Positions 4,771 through 42,264 of a stretch of DNA of 64,000 nt are shown piece by piece. A program made the translations under genes and the position numbers. The DNA lies in contig JAMXDE010000006.1 in assembly GCA_026770025.1 (NCBI GenBank), forward strand, positions 744,001 to 808,000. Direction: 5' to 3'. The notes below the pieces were generated by a model, which did no database searches, had not been told where the DNA came from, and was given only the letters and a program-made list of their open reading frames with translations. Within the stretch, counting starts at the first letter, position 1; the number at the start of each line of letters is the position of its first letter. The stretch is from Craspedostauros australis. Lineage: Eukaryota; Bacillariophyta; Bacillariophyceae; Mastogloiales; Achnanthaceae.

Positions 4771-6695
4771 AATGCCACACCAATACAAGGCTCAGCCATT
4801 TTGATACGAGCACGATAGAATAGACCACGTTGAATAGTTTCGACAAAGCAATGCTGTGCCACAGAATGATGATACCACCATATTCAACCATTATGCAATA
4901 TTCTAGCTCGTACCAGAGAGGGTCACTCCATCGAAGCAAATGCGAACGAGTGTCCTCCCGTGAGAGATAGAGACGGAGACAGAGAGGGGGGAAGCAAAAG
5001 GATTGATGGTCTTATGTTTGATGCAGAGAAGCATCCCTCCAGATGGAACGATCCTGCTGGATCATCTTCTAAATTACTCGTATGTGCACACGACGTTGAT
5101 GGTCCAAGAGCGTAACTGGAAGATATGGTACCATACATGGACATCCCATTCGTGCTAAATCGAGGAATAGGAGGATTCCTCATGCAATACTTACTTCACT
5201 CATGAGATCATCAGTCAAAGTTGCACCGAGTTCTCCAGGCGATGCGACTATAATACTTCACACATGCATCTATCCTTCAATTGGTCGACACGTCGCCATG
5301 CTCCGTTGGACGTCACTCGTATGTACATTGATCCACACAAAGTTGCCCGGTTCCACTGTGTGCGTGATTGGGTTCAGGGTTGCTTGTGACCTGTTCCTTG
5401 TCAACCGCCAGTCGATGCGCCACAGTTCGTGCGACGCAAGAGATGTGATACGGAAAGTGATATCGTGCCAGCCAACCGGTCCACAAATACGACCAGGATT
5501 AGTGTAATAATACATACGAGTGTTATATCCCTCGTGGAGTAGCGCCCAACAGCACCCCAGATGAGTGATTGTTTGGCTGTTGTGCTGTTCAACGTGGAGC
5601 AATCCCCACGTCCACCATCAACACATCGACTGATGGTACGGCCGACCCGCAACATCGGCAAAAGCAGAAAGCGGGGAAACGAAGCGGCCGCCAAAGAAAT
5701 AGAAATGTGTTTGCACCAACAACGAGGCCTGTTCGGATTTACGCACGAGTTCTCGTACGACTACGGCGCGCATGACAGCACAGAATGGATCAATGTGCGA
5801 CAAAGAGATGAGCCCAACGGTAATGTCACCAGAACATGGCCCACAGCCTTTTCAGTTCCTGATGCGAAGAATGTTGAAGACTCCCTTGGCGAAGAACGAA
5901 GAACAAGGAAAGTGGGGAACAGAGAACAGAGAACAGAAGGCGATGCACGCGATAGGCAATGCCAATCACGCTTTCCCGCCTACACACAATCAACACCAGC
6001 GCCAACGCCAACACCAACGCCAACGCCAACGCCAACACCAACGCCAACACCAACGCCAACACCAACGCCAACACCAACACCAACACCAACAACAACACCA
6101 ACACCAGCGCCAACACGGACGGAAACGACAAACCATCGCACCATCGCGGAGATTGTGGCCGCTGGCATGTATCTTGGTACGAGCCATGCACACACACGGA
6201 TGAGTGAAGTGATGGTCGAGTGATAGTAATTGAATGGTATTTTGTCGAGTATGATCATCTGCGCGGTCGCAGATTGGTGCACAGGTGGTGCTCGTGCACT
6301 TGGCGATTGCATGGCGCGTAGCCATTCCAGGAAGCGGTAGGGGCGCAACGTTTTCGTCACAACATCTCGACATCACAACATAACTGCACGGCATGGTATG
6401 GTAGAATATGTGCCACAAGCTCGCCTTCATCACATCCCCTCATTCCTTCGCAACCAAAGCATCAGAGTACGACCTACGACATCTTTGCTAGCAACACCAA
6501 CAGCATCCTGAAGCACCACCAAGACCAACGACATCAACGAACAGGAGGCAAAACCTCAAAAGAACAACCAACCTCGCCCAACTCTTTCACATTCGTTTCA
6601 GCCCCGGGCATCTCGGCCTTCACCCTTCGAGCAATCTGCTTAGTTCCTCCTCATCTTCTAAGGTAATATACATCACAAGAAAGGCACTGCTGATC
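4771..6695. other. Intergenic region between the two HSF genes
   Basis: No supported gene. The open frame 5561-6223 is carried by a hexanucleotide array and is not convincing. TACGAG-type motifs occur at 4805, 4907, 5075, 5316, 5515 and 6178. Confidence 0.55.
5990..6117. repeat. (CCAACR)n minisatellite array
   Basis: About 20 near-perfect copies of CCAACA/CCAACG run for roughly 125 bp. All six frames are open through it because of the 6-bp period (Thr-Pro, Asn-Ala, Gln-Arg and their complements), which explains the long spurious frames here. A shorter run of the same unit lies at 3439-3462. Confidence 0.9.
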
Positions 6696-8667: not shown

Positions 8668-11600
8668 ATGGCTCGTACTGGGACGAACATGCCAAGTGCG
8701 AGTAGAAAAGGAGGCAAAGGTGGCGACAGCCAGCAGCGACGCCATCGCCGGGCTCAAAATCCTGCGACCTCGTCGGCAGCAGCATCTGCATCAGCGTCAT
8801 CTGCACGTCACACATCGGTGCCAGCGAAGGGGGCCATCCTAATCTTGCATGGCAATCGTCAGACCGGACAGCTCTTCCTCGGGCGGATTGAACGCATCGT
8901 GAAGAGATTCCGCAAGGAGTTTGGATTGCGCTGTGTCGTCCCAGAAGCGCCGCATATGCATGAGGGCGATGGACCGCGTATGAAGGATCCGAACGAAGGG
9001 AAGTTGCAAACTTGGTGGCACCTCGATCTGAAATCCAACCAATACGTTGGGTTGGAAGACTCCTTGGATGCCATTCGTCAGTCGATCACGCAGCACGAGA
9101 CGAACTCGACATCCGGCGGGAAGCAGAGCAATGAGAATGCACAATCTCGGCCACCGACATCCGTTCCCATCGTTGGGATTCTCGGATTCTCCCAAGGCGC
9201 TCGAATGGCTCATTTGTTGGCCTTGCTCCACTCTCGTTCACAAGCGGTTGTGCCGTTGTCTTCTGGGCCAGGTGCTGCCGCCCAGGAGCCGTCTGATTCT
9301 TACTGCTGGCTACCAGATTTACGGTTCTGCATATTCGTGTCTGGATATGACGCTCCACTTCCATCGAACTTCCCAGTGCAGGGATCTGTCGAGAAGCAAT
9401 CTGATATGATATCCGACAAGCTGTCATCTCTGCACGTGTATGGGACGCAGGATCCGTTGGTGACTCCGGATCAATCCAAGGCCCTCCTCAAGCTGTACCC
9501 ATCGAATGGATCGGCATCGAGCAGCGAACTCGCGGAATCGTCCGAAGGGACGGACCGCAAAAAGACGGCTGCCCTGCGACGAAGTCTGGAGCACGATGGT
9601 AAGCACTTTGTCCCGTCCAAAGCCTCGCACCTTGAGACTTACAGCAAGTTCATTGCAACGGTTTGCAAGCACGAAAGTACCGACGGTGCAGTCACTAATG
9701 TTCCGGAAAAGAAGACTTCACAGAACGATGCATCCACCAAAGCACCGTCGAGAGCGCAGTCAGCGCAGCCAAGTGCGATAGGAGGCACGAGAAACTCATT
9801 GGCGAGCAGCGCCGTTCCGCAAAACAAGACAAATCCTGCTGGGAGTGCCACATCAAGCGTCTCAGTGAGGGACGAGGATTCCACCAAAACCGCACCCCAA
9901 CCACCGCCGCCACGTATCCCTCTATCAAAAAAGACCACGGCCAAGATCTCAGCCACAGTCACAGCCACAAGCAAGCCGGATGAAGAATCGCAGCAGATGC
10001 AACAGGACGAAGTCCAAGCATTGGAAGCAATCTACCCCGACGAATTCGAAATGATATCCACAAGGAAGGAGGTGGATTTTGACTTTGACTTTGACTTTCC
10101 AATCGCCTTCACGATCCAGCTCACGCCTGTGGATGATGGTGGAGCAGGCGCTGCCGCCACCGGTGATGACGACGATGGTGACAACAACTGGCCACCGCAT
10201 AAGGTGAGTTTGCGTGTGGATTTCCCGCACAACTACCCCAACGAATCCCTCCCCCGCCTCAGTCTCAAGCACGACAACAACATCTACGAATTCCCATACC
10301 TGGTCCAAGAGCAAGTTGTCCTGGCTGCTGAACGTGCAGCTCAAGAAGAGCTGGGCATGCCATGTGTCATGTCTTGCATTGAGGGCGCGAAGGAGTTCCT
10401 CGATGGACCCAAATGGGAGGCGGCCTCTCAACTACGCCTGGCCGTCAACACAAACGGTGAGGAATTGGGACAGGGAGATGAACCCATGGGTGATGAACAT
10501 GCAGCAGATGGTGAAACGGAAAAGGACGCACTCTCGGCTCAACAAGCTCCGACATCATCACTGTTGGCAAGGTCGCAACCGAAGGAAATAGCGAATGCCA
10601 CAATCGAAGGATTGGACATTGCCAAGAGCATCTTGCAGCGGCATGCGAATTCTTCAAAGCACGATGCCAAAACCAGCACCGAGAGTGTGAGCGTGGATGC
10701 AAGCGGAGCGGTGGGAAACACCGGTAGTGGTGGAGGAGGCGGAGGTGGGTCATTCTGGACATATACGATCGGGTTGGTGGGAAAGCCCTCTGCTGGAAAG
10801 TCCACCTTTTTCAATGCTGCCACGGCTTTTGCAAGACAAACGGGGCACGATGATTCGAAATCTGCAGCAAAGCGAAAGGAGACAGCATCCGTCCTGAACA
10901 TGGATGCGGATATGATGGCGGACATGATGGCAGAGGAGGCCTCGAAGCGATTGGGAGGTGCCAGCATGGCACCGCACCCATTCACCACGATCAACCCGAA
11001 CGTGGGGTTCTGCCTCGTCCCTGCTCCGCTTGGTTCCTGTCCGGAGGACGATCTCCCCAACCATGTCGAATCCAGAACCTATGGCTCCACGCATGGACGC
11101 ACAGCGACCGGTCGCCGGTTTCTGCCCGTCCTACTCAAAGATGTCGCCGGTCTCGTGCCTGGAGCCTACAAGGGCAAGGGAAGGGGGAACCAATTCCTGA
11201 ATGATCTGTGTGATTCACACGTCCTAATTCACGTGGTCGATGCCAGCGGTACAGCGGATGCGCAGGGCAACAGGACTGTGACAACGGAAGTTTCAGATCT
11301 CATGACTTCGAGCGCCAGCGGCAATAACGACCAGCGTGACGCTGACGAGGGGGACGAAGCGTCTGCAGATTACACCAACCCGCTCACTGACTTGGCCTGG
11401 ATCAGAACGGAGCTTCTGCAGTGGGTCACGATGAACCTGATGGCGAAATGGGATACGGTTCAACGCAAAGGGAGGATTAAGTTGGTCGGAATGCTCAGTG
11501 GGTATGGGCAGCCCCAAGCCACGACGCATGATGTCTGCGATGCTTTGGAACACTTTATGGAGGCCACATATCAACGCAGCAATGTGTTGGACAGCATTCC

Positions 11601-12399
11601 AGACTGGAACGAGGCCGATGTCCACCGATTTGTGAGTGCCTTCTTGGGTGTTCGCTTCCCAATGGCCCTCGCCCTCAACAAATGCGACCTACCATCAAGC
11701 AAGAAATACATTGAAGATGTTACATCGAAACTGCCGATCCACGGCGCACATGTCGGAACTCCCATGGTCGCCAAACAAGAAATGGGCTTCATCCGCAAAC
11801 ACTTGTTGAAACGATTGGAGACCCTAGAACAGGCCCGGGGTGGCACCGATGACCAATCCCACAAGCAATACATCGAACGCGGTAACAGCTCAGTGATCGA
11901 CCTGGACGTTTGGCAATGTCTGACATCTGCAATTTCACTGAAGGAACCCATGCTCGTGTTCCCCGTGTCGAACTTCACCACGTTCGCCCCGATGGTCGGA
12001 TTGAACCAGGTGGCAACGAATAGCCCGTCGTTGCCGAGCCCCGGAATGATAGCCTGCATCCAGGCATCGGGAGGTTGCCTGCCATCGCTCTGGGATCCCT
12101 CGAAGGAACGGTACGGCCTGGACAAGGATCGCGCGGAGGGAAAGGACAAGCAGCCACGTCGTGCCACGAAAGACGTCTCTCCGCTGCGGGATGTGCTGCT
12201 GATGAAGCCTGGGTCGACGGTCGAGGATGTGTTCCTCACACTGAAGAACTCAGGCGCCCTGAGCGGGGACTTCGTAAGGGCCGAGGCATGCGGCGGAGTG
12301 AGTAGAGAGAAGCCCAAGCCTGTTCCCAAACACACGATTTTAGGCCGTCACAATCGCATCATCAAAATCCAAACGACGAAGCGATCGCAGTGGCAGTAG
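8668..12399 (+). CDS. Fusion protein: FSH1-type serine hydrolase, RWD domain and Ygr210-type OBG GTPase with TGS tail
   Basis: One uninterrupted ORF of 1243 aa. Residues about 55-330 are an alpha/beta hydrolase of the FSH1 family: ILILHGNRQTG, EAPHMH, nucleophile motif GFSQG with Ser175, Asp262 in YGTQDP and His313. Residues about 445-585 are an RWD domain (DEVQALEAIYPDEF, HNYPNESLPRLSL) interrupted by a DFDFDFDF run. Residues about 695-1120 are an OBG-family GTPase: P-loop GKPSAGKS (705-712), PHPFTTINPN, DVAGLVPG, HVVDAS, and a canonical NKCD. The NKxD motif and the long insertions favour Ygr210 over YchF, whose G4 motif is NxxE. A TGS-like domain ends the protein (GSTVEDVFLTLKNSG, about 1180-1215). 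Ygr210 and YchF bind nucleotide and associate with ribosomes; RWD proteins such as Gir2/RWDD1 partner OBG-family DRG GTPases. The hydrolase substrate is unknown. All catalytic residues look intact. Confidence 0.92.
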   Translation: MARTGTNMPSASRKGGKGGDSQQRRHRRAQNPATSSAAASASASSARHTSVPAKGAILILHGNRQTGQLFLGRIERIVKRFRKEFGLRCVVPEAPHMHEGDGPRMKDPNEGKLQTWWHLDLKSNQYVGLEDSLDAIRQSITQHETNSTSGGKQSNENAQSRPPTSVPIVGILGFSQGARMAHLLALLHSRSQAVVPLSSGPGAAAQEPSDSYCWLPDLRFCIFVSGYDAPLPSNFPVQGSVEKQSDMISDKLSSLHVYGTQDPLVTPDQSKALLKLYPSNGSASSSELAESSEGTDRKKTAALRRSLEHDGKHFVPSKASHLETYSKFIATVCKHESTDGAVTNVPEKKTSQNDASTKAPSRAQSAQPSAIGGTRNSLASSAVPQNKTNPAGSATSSVSVRDEDSTKTAPQPPPPRIPLSKKTTAKISATVTATSKPDEESQQMQQDEVQALEAIYPDEFEMISTRKEVDFDFDFDFPIAFTIQLTPVDDGGAGAAATGDDDDGDNNWPPHKVSLRVDFPHNYPNESLPRLSLKHDNNIYEFPYLVQEQVVLAAERAAQEELGMPCVMSCIEGAKEFLDGPKWEAASQLRLAVNTNGEELGQGDEPMGDEHAADGETEKDALSAQQAPTSSLLARSQPKEIANATIEGLDIAKSILQRHANSSKHDAKTSTESVSVDASGAVGNTGSGGGGGGGSFWTYTIGLVGKPSAGKSTFFNAATAFARQTGHDDSKSAAKRKETASVLNMDADMMADMMAEEASKRLGGASMAPHPFTTINPNVGFCLVPAPLGSCPEDDLPNHVESRTYGSTHGRTATGRRFLPVLLKDVAGLVPGAYKGKGRGNQFLNDLCDSHVLIHVVDASGTADAQGNRTVTTEVSDLMTSSASGNNDQRDADEGDEASADYTNPLTDLAWIRTELLQWVTMNLMAKWDTVQRKGRIKLVGMLSGYGQPQATTHDVCDALEHFMEATYQRSNVLDSIPDWNEADVHRFVSAFLGVRFPMALALNKCDLPSSKKYIEDVTSKLPIHGAHVGTPMVAKQEMGFIRKHLLKRLETLEQARGGTDDQSHKQYIERGNSSVIDLDVWQCLTSAISLKEPMLVFPVSNFTTFAPMVGLNQVATNSPSLPSPGMIACIQASGGCLPSLWDPSKERYGLDKDRAEGKDKQPRRATKDVSPLRDVLLMKPGSTVEDVFLTLKNSGALSGDFVRAEACGGVSREKPKPVPKHTILGRHNRIIKIQTTKRSQWQ

Positions 12400-16053: not shown

Positions 16054-17850
16054 TTAGGAATCCTTCTTCGGTGGAAGCTTCGTAATCTTGCCAATCGCGA
16101 TGGTCTTTCCCTCCGTTCGCAGTGTGAAACGTCCCAAGAATGGCATACTTTGGAATGTGTCCACTGGGACGGTTCGACCGAGCTCGATCATGCACACCAC
16201 GCGCATGCCGATGTTCGCGAAGCGTGCGTTGTTGCCCTTGGCCACCTTGCCCTTCTTGTCGGTGGTTTCGAAGATCTTCACGATGGTGCACTCCTCCTCC
16301 ACGCAGTGAGCATGGAAGATGGCCTGGAAGCCAGCTGTCATTATTCTCGTGTTCTCGGGCATTTCCACGACAGCCATTTGACAGATGATCTTGTCGACGG
16401 CTCTGCAGGCAGGCTGGGTGCAGATGACGAAGCCCTTCCTCACATCCTCCACGCCAGCTCCGTTGAGCTTGATGAGGACGTTTTCACCGGGTCGGGCTCC
16501 GGAAACAGGGTCTTCGTTCGCCCAAACTGCGTCGACCTTGTATTCGTTTCTCGTAGGCATCAGCATCACCTTCATTCCTGGCTTTACGACGCCGCTCTCC
16601 ACCTTGCCCATGGCGATGGTGCCGCGATCGTTGTAGCGATCGAGCACAGGGATGCGGAGTGGGGCCTGTGCGTCGCGCCCGCCGATCTGCATCGAGTCCA
16701 GGAGTCCCAGCAATGTGGAGACGCTGGTGTTGTTCTCACCCTTCGTGTGTGATGGCTTCCACCAGGGGCAGACCGAAGCATCGACCTCGTCCTTGACGTT
16801 GGCTCCGCTCAAACCGGAAATCGGGATGAACTTGACTTCCTTCTTGATCGTGAATCCGCAGCTCTTCAGGAATGGCCGCAGCTTGGTGACGCACTCATCG
16901 TAACGCTCCTTGGACCAGTTCACGGTCGGGTCGTCCATCTTGTTGACGACCACGATGAGGTAGGAGACGCCGAGAGTCTTGGCGAGCATGGCGTGCTCTC
17001 GGGTCTGGCCACCACGGTCGAAGCCTGTCTCGAATTCTCCCTTACGTGCGGAGATCACGAGCACCGCGATGTCGGCCTGGCTGGCACCCATGATCATGTT
17101 CGGCACGTAGTTCTTGTGACCTGGTGCATCCAGGATGGTGTAGCGCTTGTCCTTCGTTTCGAGGTGAGCCTTGCCGACCTCCACGGTCTTTCCCTTCGCG
17201 CGTTCCTCTTCATTCGTGTCCATGATGAATGCCAGGAACCAGGACTCGCGATTTCGCTCCTTGGCTTCGCGCTCGTACCTCTCGATGGTGCGCTTGTCGA
17301 CGTTGTCGGTGAGGTAGAGGATGTTTCCAGAGAGCGTCGATTTTCCTGCATCGACATGCCCGATGAAAACCAAGTTGAAATGCTCTCTCGGATCACCTTC
17401 AGTCAATGCGGCTGCGCTTTCTTCGAGCACAGGCCGGGCTGCTGGCTGTGGCGCGCTTTCAGGTTTGTCGCTCACCTTCAGCTTGTCGGTGGCTTCCTGC
17501 GCAAGGGATTCGTCCGCAGATGCCGCCGGCTCCTCTTGTGTCTGTTGTTGCGCCTCCAGCTCTGCCTCGTCGACGGTACCCAACAAGGCCTGCACCTCTG
17601 GATACTTGGAGAGGGAGTCTGGGTCGCTGATCATTTTCAATGCCTTCGTACGATCGCCTTCTGCAACCTTCAGTACGGCCTTCCAAAGAGGATCATTCTC
17701 ATCGACCTGGTCGCTGTCATCTTTGGCGGGCACAGGTGCGGGTGCAGGAGCTGGCGCGGGAGCTGGGGCTGCCGCAGTGGGTGGCGTCCACGACTTGGCC
17801 GCCACCGATGGCTTCCATTCGCTTGCCTTGGGATCCATCATGTTGCTCAT
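16054..17850 (-). CDS. SUP35: Eukaryotic translation release factor eRF3 (Sup35/GSPT)
   Basis: The 598-aa product is the class II release factor, a GTPase that partners eRF1 at stop codons. From about residue 165 it is an EF-1alpha-like GTPase: GHVDAGKST (G1), the eRF3 signature REAKERNRESW, GKTVEVGKAHLETK (the G2 region, with TVEVG where EF-1alpha has ITID), DAPGHKNYV (G3), VVNKMDDPTVNW (G4), then domains 2 and 3 ending KLPPKKDS. The N-terminus is short and lacks the Q/N-rich prion domain of yeast Sup35. Residues 5-14, MDPKASEWKP, fit a PAM2 motif, the short peptide by which animal eRF3 binds the MLLE domain of poly(A)-binding protein. An Ala/Pro-rich stretch and an acidic helical part follow. 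Single exon, start AAAAGATGAGC. Identification is secure; the PAM2 reading is an inference. Confidence 0.96.
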   Translation of the reverse strand: MSNMMDPKASEWKPSVAAKSWTPPTAAAPAPAPAPAPAPVPAKDDSDQVDENDPLWKAVLKVAEGDRTKALKMISDPDSLSKYPEVQALLGTVDEAELEAQQQTQEEPAASADESLAQEATDKLKVSDKPESAPQPAARPVLEESAAALTEGDPREHFNLVFIGHVDAGKSTLSGNILYLTDNVDKRTIERYEREAKERNRESWFLAFIMDTNEEERAKGKTVEVGKAHLETKDKRYTILDAPGHKNYVPNMIMGASQADIAVLVISARKGEFETGFDRGGQTREHAMLAKTLGVSYLIVVVNKMDDPTVNWSKERYDECVTKLRPFLKSCGFTIKKEVKFIPISGLSGANVKDEVDASVCPWWKPSHTKGENNTSVSTLLGLLDSMQIGGRDAQAPLRIPVLDRYNDRGTIAMGKVESGVVKPGMKVMLMPTRNEYKVDAVWANEDPVSGARPGENVLIKLNGAGVEDVRKGFVICTQPACRAVDKIICQMAVVEMPENTRIMTAGFQAIFHAHCVEEECTIVKIFETTDKKGKVAKGNNARFANIGMRVVCMIELGRTVPVDTFQSMPFLGRFTLRTEGKTIAIGKITKLPPKKDS

Positions 17851-24996: not shown

Positions 24997-26892
24997 CTAG
25001 GAGGTGGTGTTGCCGTTTAGCTGCTCTGATCTGATCTCGCTGCTGCTGATGTCGACCCTAAATTCGTTCTCCTTGATGATGGAGAACATTGCGCGGATCT
25101 TCGTGGGTAATCGGTCCACCTCGTCGAAGCCCGACACGAACTTCTCGGAAGCCTGAACATCCTTCCGCTGCTCCAGACGGCCGCCCACAATGAACCGCAC
25201 GCCCTGATTCATCATGGAGCCAAGAGCCTCGAGCATCTCGTCGCGGTCGTTGCCGTAGTACTTTGGATCGATGAGTCGCACCAGTGTGTCGGTGCCGATG
25301 ACGAATGACATCATGGGGGAGCCTTCGTGGCTGCCGCGGATCTCCTCCTGCGGGATGCAGTTGCTCAGAACTTCGACTTTTTTCGAGAACAGCGGAGCTC
25401 TGGTGAGCAAGATGCCCCAGTTGGTCGGGAGCTCTTCGAAGCTCAGGAAGGACCGTAACCGCTCTGATACGACCTCCGGGTCTATGCTCGGTTTGTCAGC
25501 ATTTGCGATGGACAGCTCCATGAACACTGCCAGCTCTCGCCTGTGAGCGGTCGGATCGATCCGGCGTTGACTGTTCGTGCGGTGCTCCACTGCCGCGCTC
25601 GCCAGCGACAGATGCCCTTGGTGTGGTGGATTGAAGCTACCTGGGAACACTATGCTGCCATGGGGGAGGAATGAGTAGTGCAACGCTCGGAACGACTTCG
25701 CCTTTCCATTCTCGTACATCGGGATAAGTATCACAGCATCACAATCTCCCGATATGATCCGCTTTGCGGCGTGTGTCGGGACGTCTCTGCGGGGCATGCG
25801 TCCGATTGCGCTGTCACTAGTTGCTGCATTTCCGTTGGCGTGCGCTTGTGCTTTCTTATGCCCTGCTAATGTTGCTTCTTCTTCTGCTGCTGTTGCTGTT
25901 GCTGCTGTTGCTGATGACTCTATCTGTTCAGATTCTGAGCTTCCGCCATCAGCATTTCTGCGACCCTCACTCCCCCATGGCACCCAGCGTTCCGTCACTT
26001 TGTCACCGAATTGCGTTGAAAAGTCGTTCTCGTACGGAGCGACGGCGTCCCCCATCTTGAGTACCTTGTTGATCGTGCTCAGAATAACGTGGCTCAGCAG
26101 CACGTCCTCGTCGAGCCTGGATCGGCCAAAGCCCCTCGTTTTCTCGCTGGCCATGGTGATGTTCACAAAGAGCTGGGACCCGTCGGCTATCGTCACAGCC
26201 AGATTCCCATGGCCTTCGAACTCTTCATCCGAGTCCAACGATCTCAACGTGGAGGCGCAACCTACTCCCACGCACCCTGTCATCTGGCGCACGTTGGAAC
26301 AACGGTATTGCAACGCCTTCTGCAAGGCAGCCTCCGATGCCGTCTTGGCCGCTTCCATGGATGCGTACTGGAAATTTGTCATTGCAGGTGGAAGTTGCAC
26401 GTAATTCTGGTACGACTTCCGATCGTACGTCACGCATCCCTCCAGAAGCACGGAGGACGCGCCGGGAGTCGCAGCGAGCGCGGAGATGGCATTCCCACCT
26501 CCTCCGGCAATGGCCAAGCAAACGCTGATCCTCTGGCTTTTCTCGCGCTTCACGTTGTTGTCGACTAGCAGTTTTGCGAGGTTTTCCAAGCTTTCGGCTG
26601 AGGCATCATGAACATCGTAGGAGAGGGTGGGAGTCGACATCCCCTCGCCGATCGAGTGCGCTGCGGACTGCAAGGATGATGGCGCCGACGAATCCCCACG
26701 CACGTTGCGGAAGTTATGGATGCCTCGGTGATGGCAATGGCGATGCCGATTGCTGACGCTTCTCCCCTGCTTGTGGAAGGGACTTTGGTGTTGGTTCCAC
26801 GCCCCGACAAGCAAGAACAGTGACAGGGTCGATAGGATGTGAAGGACTTGGAAGGAACGTGGCTCTGCAAATGGAACTGTCGACAGGACCAT
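24997..26892 (-). CDS. CinA-like domain fused to NMNAT-like nucleotidyltransferase, probable plastid or secretory presequence
   Basis: The 631-aa product has two enzymatic modules. Residues about 90-285 resemble the CinA C-terminal (PncC, nicotinamide-nucleotide amidase) fold: SLENLAKLLVDN, VCLAIAGGGGNAISALAATPGAS, ASMEAAKTASEAAL, GVGCAST. Residues about 410-631 are a nucleotidylyltransferase: FPGSFNPPHQGH (415-426, the substrate HxGH-type motif) and ISSSEIR (615-621, the ISSxxxR motif), as in NMN/nicotinate-mononucleotide adenylyltransferases. Plants encode a similar two-domain protein. Both modules touch pyridine-nucleotide chemistry, so a role in NAD precursor salvage or NAD(P) repair is inferred. 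The N-terminus has a hydrophobic core (VLHILSTLSLFLLVGA) followed directly by Trp and a basic Ser/His/Arg-rich stretch, like a complex-plastid bipartite presequence. An internal Met at residue 85 could give a cytosolic form. Single exon. Confidence 0.85.
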   Translation of the reverse strand: MVLSTVPFAEPRSFQVLHILSTLSLFLLVGAWNQHQSPFHKQGRSVSNRHRHCHHRGIHNFRNVRGDSSAPSSLQSAAHSIGEGMSTPTLSYDVHDASAESLENLAKLLVDNNVKREKSQRISVCLAIAGGGGNAISALAATPGASSVLLEGCVTYDRKSYQNYVQLPPAMTNFQYASMEAAKTASEAALQKALQYRCSNVRQMTGCVGVGCASTLRSLDSDEEFEGHGNLAVTIADGSQLFVNITMASEKTRGFGRSRLDEDVLLSHVILSTINKVLKMGDAVAPYENDFSTQFGDKVTERWVPWGSEGRRNADGGSSESEQIESSATAATATAAEEEATLAGHKKAQAHANGNAATSDSAIGRMPRRDVPTHAAKRIISGDCDAVILIPMYENGKAKSFRALHYSFLPHGSIVFPGSFNPPHQGHLSLASAAVEHRTNSQRRIDPTAHRRELAVFMELSIANADKPSIDPEVVSERLRSFLSFEELPTNWGILLTRAPLFSKKVEVLSNCIPQEEIRGSHEGSPMMSFVIGTDTLVRLIDPKYYGNDRDEMLEALGSMMNQGVRFIVGGRLEQRKDVQASEKFVSGFDEVDRLPTKIRAMFSIIKENEFRVDISSSEIRSEQLNGNTTS

Positions 26893-28284: not shown

Positions 28285-30048
28285 TTACTCCGCCTTGACT
28301 TCGATCTTGGATCCCTTCCGGATCTGGCCCCAGCCGATGAGACGCCAATGCTTGTCGACACGTCGCGACAGAGCGATCTTCTCACCCTCTTCTGTGCACA
28401 CTGGTTGCGTGAGCACGACCTTCGCCAGATCGCCCTTGACCGCGATGACGCGGCCGCCTGTAGCTGTGGAGCCAATGTTGACCATCAGAATCTCATTCTT
28501 CGTGAGCTTCTGGACCTTGGCCTGCTTTCCACCATCGCTCGTCTTGACACCGAGCAATCGTCTCAGGAGGTAGTACGAGATCTCGATCTCGCAGAAGACG
28601 TCCGGAAGCTTTCCCTTCAGCCCGAGGACCTGCCCGACGAGGCGGTCGGCACGGGTGAGCGTTGGATCGATGCGGGTTCCGACACCGATGAGACCTCCTG
28701 GAACGGCGAATTGGAGGTCGTTCTGCTCTGCATAGAGCGAGGAGATTCTGGAGTAGATTGGGGAGCAGAGCATGGTAGTGTTGCCGTTGCCATCCTCATG
28801 CTTCGTCACAATTCCTGGTCGCACCTCGACCTCGTCACCGACTCGCAGCACACCCTGCAGGATACTGCCTCCAGCAACACCACCCTGCAAGTTGCTGACG
28901 TCCTGTCCTGGACGGTTGACGTCGAAGGAACGGATGACGATGAGACGCGGGACGCTGGTGAAGTCTCTTGGCGGCAGCGGGATCTTTCGCACGATGTACT
29001 CGCAGACGGCGTCGATGTTGTACTTGAGGACGGCGGATATGGGGATGATGGGTGCCGAATCGGCGACGGTTCCCGCCACGAACTTGCGGATCTGCTCCTG
29101 CTGCGCCAGGGCGGCATCGGGCTTCACGAGATCGACCTTGTTCTGCAAAATCAGGATCTCCTTGAGCCTCATGATCTCGACGGCTGCAAGATGTTCGCTG
29201 GTCTGTGGCTGTGGACAGGTTTCGTTGCCGGCGACGAGCAGGAAGGCGGCATCCATGACGGCCGCGCCGTTCAGCATGGTGGCCATGAGAATGTCATGCC
29301 CTGGACAATCCACGAAACTGACGTGACGGCGCAGACGGTATGTGACACCGGTGACATCGTCAATGAACTCATCAGCATGCGACGATCCTCTGGATGTGTA
29401 GTATCCGCCTTTCTCGTTCTTCGGATCGCCCTTGTAGATCTTGGCGTTGGCATATCCCAGCTTGATGGTGATGTTACGCTCCAGCTCGTTCTTAAATCGC
29501 ACGGTTTGCACACCACTGATGGACTTCACCACAGTGGACTTTCCGTGAGCCACGTGACCGATTGTTCCAATATTGATCGTTGCTTGTCGCGAGATCTGCC
29601 GTGGTGATGAGATTGACGTTGGTATTGGCGTTAGCGATATCGGTAGGTGTTGTTGGTGTCGGTGTGAGGCGTGTTAGCTTGAGTGCATGAAACATGGCAT
29701 GACCTGACATGGTCTGAGGTGTAGCAGTGCAACAGTACAACAGCGCAACATCGCAACATGCAGGGTTGTCGCAAGTTCGACGCATTGATCTGAGTCCAAA
29801 CAGCCACAAATACGATCATCATCATGAGATATGGGTTCAGGATCAAGTCCAGGACCAACTCGGCCTCGTGGGTGCGCCAGGCTGGTGCTGCATTCCGCTT
29901 CGGTTCGAGCTTCGTCGCACTAAAAAACATGCCATCATGTCGCACTCACCACTTCTGGCGAGAGAGCAGTGAGCTTGGTTGCATCGACTGCAGAAGCATC
30001 CTGTGGCTTCAAATGCGGCTGCTTGCGGCCCTCCTCTCCGTCGCCCAT
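28285..30048 (-). CDS. EIF2S3: Translation initiation factor eIF2 gamma subunit, two exons
   Basis: Exon 1 is 30048-29950 (33 codons, [10 protein letters not shown] to TALSPEV) and exon 2 is 29595-28285. The 354-bp phase-0 intron has donor GTGAGT and acceptor GGCAG; splicing gives [24 protein letters not shown]-type sequence exactly as in known eIF2 gamma. Total 469 aa. GTPase motifs: GHVAHGKST (G1), [16 protein letters not shown] (switch 1 and flank), DCPGHD (G3), NKVD (G4); then [19 protein letters not shown], the LRRLLGVKT region and the ending [11 protein letters not shown]. It is the core of eIF2, which carries initiator Met-tRNA to the 40S subunit. The knuckle after ANAKIY, which in human and yeast holds zinc-binding cysteines, here reads [23 protein letters not shown]-like sequence without cysteine. 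Identity is secure. Confidence 0.97.
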
Positions 30049-31620: not shown

Positions 31621-32892
31621 ATGAGCCTGATGCAAGCCAAGCCGGATGTGGACAAAAGCAACACCCAGCCCAGCGAACCTGATTACTGCCGCCTCGTGCG
31701 AAAGACTTGCCATGAATGGATGGCAGGGAAGGCCGCGTCCACGACTGGGGTTGTTGCAAATTCTTCCAATCCAGCGCAACTGCGACTGCAACAGCAGCAA
31801 CCCGATTCCTGGCATGTCAACGTCCGCGTGAATGAGATGGCGATGGATGGTCTATGTGACGAGATCGAGTTGAAGCACAAGAACAACCCGATTGAATGGG
31901 ATGAAGAGGAATGGCATTACACGGGCGGCCAATACCGAAGCGGCACAGAAGCACAACGCAAGGAGCGCGTCGCCATGTACATCCTGGCGTTGGATGCCAT
32001 CAATTTCTGCTTCTGGCCCAGCCGGGATGGTTCCACGCAGGTCAACAGCCTCGAGTACGATACGCTCGCAGTTGCTCTCAGGAAGATGGCGGAACAAGAC
32101 GACGATGACGGGCAGCACGATGGAAATGAAGGTGCCAGTTCCGGTATTGGCGCTGCTCGAACTATCGAAGAGGACGATGCCTTGTATTCGAATGCAGACC
32201 GACAGCCCATCGGTATCTCGGAAGGATATGCACTATCTCCGCGATCTCTCTCCACCATGACAGTATTGCAGATGCAGCAGAAGTTGGCAGAACCCTATTT
32301 GCAAGGCTTCCATCTCCCCAACATACAAAAGCGCTGCGAGCTGTGGAATGAACTGGGCAGCGTTCTGCTGACCAAATTCAAAGGTTCACCAATGCGCATG
32401 ATCCGCCAAGCCAACGGCAGCGCTCCGGCCTTGGTGAACATCATCACGAGCAACTTGCCTGGTTTCCAGGACTTTGCCCAAATCGATGACCTGCAAATCT
32501 GGTTCCTGAAACGTGCCCAGATCGTGGTTGGCGATCTCAACGCTGCACTGCAGCTCAATCTCAGCGAGATGCAGGCATTATCATGCTTCGCCGACTACCG
32601 CGTGCCTCAGATTTTGCGGATGCAAGGTGTGCTGCACTACTCCGAGCAACTAGCGGACGCTGTGGATCAGGAACGGGAGATTGCGGGAGGCTCTCGGGAC
32701 GAGGTATCCATACGGGCCGCCACGGTTGTCGCTGTGGATAAGATCGTGGAGAAGGTGAATGGTCGGCGGGCAACGCACGAAGCTCCGATAACGGCCGTCG
32801 AGGTCGATTGGTACCTGTGGCAGGTAGGCGAGCGGTTGAATCAGGCTGGACGGCTGGCACCCTTCCACAGAGTCAGAACACACTTTTATTAG
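31621..32892 (+). CDS. QNG1: Queuosine 5'-phosphate N-glycosylase/hydrolase, queuine salvage (DUF2419)
   Basis: The 423-aa product matches the DUF2419 family, whose human member C9orf64/QNG1 releases queuine base from queuosine 5'-phosphate so it can be reinserted in tRNA at G34 by the TGT enzyme. Family landmarks in order: IEWDEEEWHYTG, ALDAINFCFWP (about 120-131), LEYDTLAVALRKM, a disordered acidic insert (about 160-195), RCELWNELGSVLLTKFKGSP, SAPALVNIITSNLPGFQD, FLKRAQIVVGDLN, and the highly typical CFADYRVPQILRMQGVLHYS; the end carries DWYLWQVGE. The acidic insert is the only departure from the usual length. No targeting peptide is evident, so a cytosolic place is likely. Queuine is not made by eukaryotes, so this enzyme implies dependence on bacterial or dietary queuine. 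Single exon. Confidence 0.92.
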   Translation: MSLMQAKPDVDKSNTQPSEPDYCRLVRKTCHEWMAGKAASTTGVVANSSNPAQLRLQQQQPDSWHVNVRVNEMAMDGLCDEIELKHKNNPIEWDEEEWHYTGGQYRSGTEAQRKERVAMYILALDAINFCFWPSRDGSTQVNSLEYDTLAVALRKMAEQDDDDGQHDGNEGASSGIGAARTIEEDDALYSNADRQPIGISEGYALSPRSLSTMTVLQMQQKLAEPYLQGFHLPNIQKRCELWNELGSVLLTKFKGSPMRMIRQANGSAPALVNIITSNLPGFQDFAQIDDLQIWFLKRAQIVVGDLNAALQLNLSEMQALSCFADYRVPQILRMQGVLHYSEQLADAVDQEREIAGGSRDEVSIRAATVVAVDKIVEKVNGRRATHEAPITAVEVDWYLWQVGERLNQAGRLAPFHRVRTHFY

Positions 32893-41487: not shown

Positions 41488-42264
41488 ATGAATGTGAGCA
41501 TGCCGTCGCTGAAAGCTGCCGGTGCCAGAGCCTTCGCAAGCCTGCGCCAAGCTGGTTCGGGTGATCTCGTCGCATGTTGCAAACGCCGCCATCTTCCTGG
41601 TGATGGCAGCTTCAACATGCGCACGGCAAGCATGGCAAGGCCCATGCCCACGTCAAGGATCGATCGATCAAGCGGGGTTGGTGCCGGCGTTGGATACAGG
41701 ACAACAGCCTCCGTTGGACCCCGGATGGGTGTCCCTGTCACCAGATGCCTTTCGGTCGATATGACGAACGGATGGACTATTCGAGATTCATTCTCGGCAT
41801 TCCAGCATCGCCGCAGCTCGTCATCATCGTCATCATCAACAACATCATCATCATCGCCAGCACCAACATTGACGAATGACGATGAATCCAAGGACCCAGC
41901 ATCAAATACGTCAAGCGACGATGCGTCGACTGCCGACTCATTCACGGACGTCCCAGGTTCAAAAGCCGGGGGCAAGAAACTGGCCATCGTCTTCACCTGC
42001 AACGTTTGCGACACAAGGTCCGCGAAGCAATTCACGGAACATGCCTACACGAATGGCGTCGTCATCGTGCAGTGTCCCAAATGCAACAGCCGGCATCTAA
42101 TCGCAGATAATCTGGGCATGTTCACGGACGACGAGGAATGGACGATTGAAGGAGCCATGGACAAGATGGGTCAATCCGTCACGCGCGTCACCGACGATAA
42201 CGTGATGGAGCTGACGTTGGAAGATGTCGTGGGGGAGATTCCTCGATCACCGACCAAAACGTGA
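41488..42264 (+). CDS. ZIM17: DNL-type zinc finger protein Zim17/Hep1/DNLZ, mtHsp70 escort
   Basis: The 258-aa product ends in a DNL zinc finger: C171-x2-C174 and C196-x2-C199 hold one zinc ion, and HLIADNLGMF is the family signature (usually DNLGW; here Met replaces Trp). This protein keeps mitochondrial Hsp70 soluble and supports protein import and folding in the matrix; algal and plant paralogues also act in plastids. The N-terminus (MNVSMPSLKAAGARAFASLRQ) is an acid-free amphipathic presequence, followed by a Ser/Asp-rich disordered linker with a TCATCATCG-type poly-Ser run (41818-41860). Longer than yeast Zim17 because of that linker. Single exon. The stop lies only 133 bp from the stop of the convergent MGNCQS gene. 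Confidence 0.93.
   Translation: MNVSMPSLKAAGARAFASLRQAGSGDLVACCKRRHLPGDGSFNMRTASMARPMPTSRIDRSSGVGAGVGYRTTASVGPRMGVPVTRCLSVDMTNGWTIRDSFSAFQHRRSSSSSSSSTTSSSSPAPTLTNDDESKDPASNTSSDDASTADSFTDVPGSKAGGKKLAIVFTCNVCDTRSAKQFTEHAYTNGVVIVQCPKCNSRHLIADNLGMFTDDEEWTIEGAMDKMGQSVTRVTDDNVMELTLEDVVGEIPRSPTKT

Follow-up and report, generated by a model that had tools for sequence, protein, structure and literature searches.

An open reading frame of Craspedostauros australis that joins an FSH1-type serine hydrolase, an RWD domain and a divergent Ygr210-type GTPase

The 64,000-nucleotide stretch of the Craspedostauros australis genome analyzed here (hereinafter, the window; C4:744001-808000 within the 74.8-Mb assembly of 90 contigs) contains, at 8668-12399 on the forward strand, an open reading frame (ORF) that starts with ATG, is preceded by an in-frame TAG six codons upstream, ends at a TAG and is open throughout its 1243 codons. 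The predicted protein combines an FSH1-type serine hydrolase, an RWD domain and an OBG-type GTPase, which is followed by a strongly diverged tail (Table 1). When the whole genome was searched with this protein, the ORF was recovered at C4:752668-756396 without internal stops; the uninterrupted 1243-codon frame proposed in an earlier, sequence-only reading of this DNA was thus confirmed, with no stop between the domains. The same whole-genome search detected no second copy of the three-part protein, the one further, weak match being to an OBG protein. As judged from the sequence, the three-part protein is real, intact and uncharacterized.

Table 1. Features of the three-part ORF (positions in the window; residues of the predicted protein)
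Feature	Position	Strand	Residues	Basis or remarks
Full ORF	8668..12399	+	1243 aa	FSH1 - linker - RWD - linker - OBG/Ygr210-type GTPase - diverged TGS-like tail
FSH1 serine hydrolase domain	8827..9639	+	54-324	Pfam PF03959; alignment with the stand-alone FSH1 L083; with insertions
Nucleophile	9190..9192	+	Ser175	In GFSQG (173-177); aligned with Ser of L083 and L085
Triad Asp	9451..9453	+	Asp262	Aligned with L083 and L085
Triad His	9604..9606	+	His313	Aligned with L083 and L085
RWD domain	9994..10401	+	443-578	Pfam PF05773; best PDB match RWDD1 (2ebm)
Linker 2	10402..10758	+	579-697	Acidic, then Gly-rich; without a DFRP_C match
OBG-type GTPase	10759..11982	+	698-1105	GKPSAGKST 705-713, PFTTI 771-775, DVAG 825-828, NKCD 1004-1007
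TGS-like tail, strongly diverged	12181..12387	+	1172-1240	TGS profile covers 1173-1188; rest from alignment

The hydrolase part aligns with positions 4 to 210 of the 211-position Pfam profile PF03959, with a score (110.6 bits, E 1.1e-31) far above the cut-off of 21. The same profile detects three other FSH1 places in the genome: L083, a complete, stand-alone open frame of 272 residues that spans nearly the full profile; L085, which covers the profile partially and carries the motif AHSQG; and L086 (C5:2594194), where the match contains one TGA inside and may be intron-interrupted or decayed. In the two of these three places that were aligned, L083 and L085, Ser, Asp and His stand opposite Ser175, Asp262 and His313, so the apparently intact triad named in the sequence-only reading holds, with its positions right, in both compared FSH1-like frames. 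When the NCBIfam collection was searched with the FSH1 stretch, weak matches to other alpha/beta hydrolases were found (E 0.002 and 0.071). Besides the papers named below, the published work consulted includes PMC8629797 and PMC6921030. The aligned GFSQG motif and Ser-Asp-His residues are shared with FSH1-3 and OVCA2, and GFSQG is reported as fully conserved among OVCA2 homologs (PMC7077851). Unlike in those enzymes, the hydrolase here is one part of a large protein, and the triad residues lie farther apart: the Ser-Asp and Asp-His distances are 87 and 51 residues, compared with 62 and 27 in OVCA2 (numbering of PMC7077851) and 58 and 27 in a shrimp FSH. By alignment, the extra residues fall in insertions.

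The RWD domain is canonical by Pfam, in agreement with the earlier assignment: the match spans the full PF05773 profile (1-112 of 112) at 62.5 bits, over the cut-off of 22.8 (E 5.1e-17). Its best PDB matches, obtained with phmmer, are both weak, namely, RWDD1 (E 0.0049) and RNF25 (E 0.014). Of at least seven RWD places in the genome, the one in this ORF scores best; the other six comprise an IMPACT-type protein (RWD and UPF0029), one with a kinase match below the cut-off, one with a DEAD helicase, one with a DHX29 domain below the cut-off, one with Prp3_C and one with RWD alone. The genome also encodes a Gcn1 homolog (L100/L108), with GNC1_N and HEAT_GCN1 over the cut-off, matches the DRG extension PF16897 in three places, all over the cut-off, and matches PF16543 (DFRP_C) in a sole place, on C40. 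Because DRG-extension, DFRP_C and Gcn1 genes are present separately, the fusion probably is an addition to these standard parts rather than a replacement for them. Two of the DRG-extension matches, L096 (C41:483508) and L097 (C41:469066), have near-equal scores and lie about 14 kb apart, and perhaps represent a duplicated DRG gene.

The GTPase part matches Pfam MMR_HSR1 at 33.7 bits, over the cut-off (E 4.3e-8), with the best stretch at residues 700-720. Its G1, G3 and NKxD-type G4 motifs are intact, and the GTPase motifs GKPSAGKST, DVAG and NKCD stand where the sequence-only reading had placed them. NKCD is taken by us to be a GTP-type G4. Among NCBIfam families, the GTPase is most similar to NF007171 (PRK09602, 'YchF-related putative GTPase'; 167.5 bits, with the next family at 47), and among solved structures 1wxq is closest (E 2.6e-23), with YchF far behind at E 6.3e-7. 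Thus, in its best family, its best solved relative and the kept G1, G3 and G4, the protein resembles the Ygr210 and archaeal YchF-related GTPases, from which it differs in that 42 residues are inserted between G1 and PFTTI. Further relatives were sought in genome_contigs with a pair alignment (A1); at least 583 stretches matched, 541 of those listed encode relatives, and the best 80, which were kept, are all archaeal. A frame could be read at 63 of these 80 loci by one filter and at 45 by a stricter one; positions that are the same in at least 85% of the 45 relatives were taken as conserved (n = 100). Before residue 1034, 57 of 66 such positions are kept in our protein. A search of the C. australis genome with the archaeal GTPase query retrieved seven places, namely, two in this ORF, one OBG protein, one YchF by eye, and L105-L107; no second Ygr210-type GTPase was recognized among these seven, with the last three left unclassified. 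The YGR210-like_G4 profile PF08438 matched nowhere when run over the genome, this ORF included, and is hence uninformative with regard to a second copy.

The joining of domains is specific to this protein in the comparison with the archaeal GTPases: in the 63 frames read, G1 lies within 65 residues of the frame start, whereas here FSH1 and RWD precede it, and in the best 80 archaeal loci neither FSH1 nor RWD queries produced any tblastn match at E<=1, compared with 80/80 for the GTPase query. Scans of viral_contigs, in which 1, 68 and 6 stretches matched the pattern, yielded no relatives; no fused homolog was found among 19 phage records searched with the GTPase region only, or in plasmids searched with the FSH1 part only (one weak match, E 0.1). 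These four collections consist of prokaryotes and viruses and have no bearing on eukaryotes. In the open-licence PMC literature, among the matches listed, PMC12711092 was the only paper found to name all three parts together. In the S2 Data legend of this paper, the Chlamydomonas gene Cre12.g538200 is given the JGI annotation MMR_HSR1//FSH1//RWD//YGR210-like_G4, that is, the same four Pfam labels for one gene, the likeness being one of annotation only. No other paper was found under this locus name in the same literature, and in PMC12711092 the gene is likewise described as uncharacterized. The suggestion in the sequence-only reading that no protein with these three parts had been described is overtaken by this annotation, by which the architecture is not unique to C. 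australis. Because the same annotation appears in a distant green alga, we infer that this is probably an old eukaryotic fusion, uncharacterized, rather than a local accident.

It could be argued that the ORF represents two adjacent genes that share a frame, or a mis-assembled join, and some properties of the linkers are compatible with that. A stretch open over 118 codons is weak evidence by itself because 9% of 4000 pieces outside masked genes are likewise stop-free over this length (a null set that may include unmasked exons), and by synonymous codon choice alone linkers 1 and 2 are indistinct from the background, with 13% and 25% of the pieces, respectively, scoring as high. Against such a split, the true frame scores best as coding among the six frames for both linkers (0.146 and 0.125 bits per codon), values that are equaled or exceeded by 2.2% and 2.7%, respectively, of the 4000 pieces; in the N-terminal 50 residues, another frame scores better than the true one. 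Furthermore, there is no Met between residues 607 and 745, so that, if the GTPase were a gene of its own beginning shortly before G1, it would require an additional 5' exon. The frame also is open inside a 3.4-Mb contig, and the Chlamydomonas gene is reported with the same three-part annotation. Two genes or a mis-join therefore appear highly improbable, and the sequence is most simply read as encoding a single polypeptide, in view of the linkers, the gap in Met residues and the Chlamydomonas annotation. Separately, a strong donor-acceptor pair is present at 10204-10262 on the forward strand, within the RWD coding sequence; because its length of 59 nt is not divisible by three, excision would put the downstream codons out of frame, and translation would stop after 534 residues. 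Of 300 codon-shuffled ORFs, 33% contain a pair of this kind, and we took this one as due to chance.

Elsewhere in the window, we noticed an EF-Tu/eEF1A-class GTPase that reads like eRF3 (16054-17850, reverse strand) and eIF2-gamma (28285-29553 and upstream, reverse strand), the latter with a 354-nt intron (GTGAGT...CAG) inferred by eye, an indication that this genome can have long introns. The location of these two genes within 21 kb of the fusion GTPase is probably a coincidence. A 631-codon frame at 24997-26892 (reverse strand) combines CinA (PF02464) and cytidylyltransferase-like (PF01467) matches, each just over the cut-off, in what appears to be a two-enzyme frame. The forward strand encodes a queuosine salvage protein (31621-32892) and a DNL zinc-finger protein (41488-42264), and at positions 5991-6116 a CAACAC-like hexamer is arrayed in about 21 copies.

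What such a protein might do can be approached through its families. In the Gir2-Rbg2 complex, the C-terminal DFRP region of Gir2 holds the GTPase and the RWD domain contacts Gcn1; on collided ribosomes, the Rbg2 GTPase occupies the factor site (PMC8040806, PMC3510508), and its TGS domain is described as contacting the 40S subunit. GCN1 is reported to be bound by the RWD domains of GCN2, IMPACT, DFRP2/Gir2 and RNF14 (PMC10931611). As in the pairs of Gir2/RWDD1 with Rbg2/DRG2, an RWD domain is joined to an OBG-family GTPase in the present protein, but covalently. Glu459 of this protein presumably stands opposite GCN2 Asp37, which PMC10931611 names in connection with Gcn1 contact, as placed via an alignment with mouse GCN2 and the human sequence and numbering, and this correspondence was given no weight.

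The reading that we favor, tentatively and at somewhat less than even confidence, is that of a ribosome-linked GTPase that docks via its RWD domain on Gcn1-like partners and carries a built-in acyl-ester hydrolase. Because the covalent link could replace the DFRP part, of which none was found, we propose that the protein docks through RWD and that its residence near the ribosome is under GTP control. By family resemblance, a cytosolic GTPase would bind ribosomes in a GTP-dependent manner, like several OBG proteins; the RWD domain would dock the protein on an RWD receptor, be it Gcn1 or a different one; and the FSH1 part would remove by hydrolysis a long-chain acyl group that is bound as an ester or thioester to a partner or a small molecule at the docking site, such that the GTP state and docking would set the place and time of its action, with the covalent link standing in for the DFRP part. 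A more specific version, in which the serine hydrolase of a widely kept eukaryotic enzyme is brought to stalled ribosomes, with the RWD domain on Gcn1, the GTPase in the factor site and FSH1 cleaving an acyl mark carried by a ribosome partner or even the tRNA-nascent chain ester, is a long shot.

Several observations weigh against the proposal of a ribosome-docked GTPase-hydrolase. When the FSH1 stretch by itself was compared with the PDB, up to E 10, the matches included no hydrolase but only two signal recognition particle (SRP) chains, and the PF03959 profile also matches 8 of 14 prokaryote controls, 7 of them over the cut-off, so that weak matches are not specific; it is therefore chiefly the strong match over the full length of the profile that supports the FSH1 label. 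The RWD domain, as a general-purpose interaction fold, need not bind Gcn1. No DFRP_C match (PF16543) was found in the protein or in linker 2, and no DRG-type extension (PF16897) was detected by Pfam in the protein, unlike in Gir2/DFRP2 with Rbg2/DRG2, to which the weak RWDD1 match (E 0.0049) adds a further difference. The idea that RWD is a built-in GTPase partner by analogy with Gir2, put forward in the sequence-only reading, is thus weak, DFRP and not RWD being the part that holds the GTPase in that complex. The Ygr210-type assignment holds as to the nearest branch (PRK09602, 1wxq) and falls short of the curated cut-offs: 167.5 bits compared with 387 for PRK09602 and, for PF08438 at residues 1002-1102, 15.4 bits (E 0.055) compared with 24.7. 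The TGS tail, too, is weaker than proposed in that reading. Pfam detects no TGS in this protein, the sole such member of alignment A2 (the other 45 of 46 match); a profile made from the archaeal set scores 9.9 bits on residues 1110-1243, where the top score from 200 shuffles (102 of which were reported) is 2.0, and 6.0 bits on the whole protein, where it aligns only the 16 residues 1173-1188. A TGS is therefore barely recognizable in the tail, which perhaps is a strongly changed TGS rather than a clear one, and the GTPase, as far as the alignments go, is related to the Ygr210 branch but divergent, and not a textbook member.

From residue 1034 on, moreover, only 12 of the 34 conserved positions are kept and 22 differ (31 of 100 over the whole alignment). 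Together with the degenerate tail, this pattern would be expected of a drifting fusion, in which the hydrolase is a passenger on a GTPase whose family features are being lost, and one part alone matters. We consider such drift rather improbable given that the triad, the RWD domain and the G motifs are intact, that the conserved positions before residue 1034 are mostly kept, and that a distantly related green alga has a gene annotated with the same set of domains, which an accident does not predict. Finally, Cre12.g538200 is discussed in PMC12711092 only beside flagellar beat frequency, with no demonstrated link, and the description 'conserved in algae and invertebrates' comes from that paper's authors.

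That discussion concerns the Chlamydomonas lf5-2 deletion (PLoS Biol 2025), in which CDKL5, Cre12.g538250 and Cre12.g538200 are lost; CDKL5-GFP rescued flagellar length and barely raised the low beat frequency, which the authors describe as not understood, mentioning the two other deleted genes and linking neither to flagella (PMC12711092). Because this flagellar phenotype is the only one in sight, the main rival to a ribosomal role is a GTP-gated deacylase that works elsewhere than at ribosomes, such as in cilia or in membrane trafficking, with the RWD domain bound to another partner. The low beat frequency that persists after length rescue in cells lacking the gene is consistent with such a role, as are the preference of OVCA2 and FSH1 for long-chain alkyl esters (PMC7077851) and the description of RWD as a protein-interaction fold. 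The flagellar lead is confounded because another gene is also deleted in lf5-2, and many OBG relatives are tied to ribosomes, so that this alternative seems unlikely, although it deserves more credence than a drifting fusion. The ribosome-linked reading remains the one we prefer.

The fusion makes it reasonable to predict, on the Rosetta-stone principle, a functional link between FSH1 and Ygr210 proteins; C. australis keeps separate FSH1 as well, with at least one complete stand-alone frame in the genome. For the yeast FSH proteins, the biological function is described as unknown (PMC7077851). The occurrence of FSH1, RWD and a Ygr210-type GTPase in one polypeptide, in C. australis and, by annotation, in Chlamydomonas, suggests that these parts act jointly, and the value of the finding lies in the connection that it draws between two poorly understood families, and in the availability of a Chlamydomonas deletion strain whose phenotype lacks an explanation.

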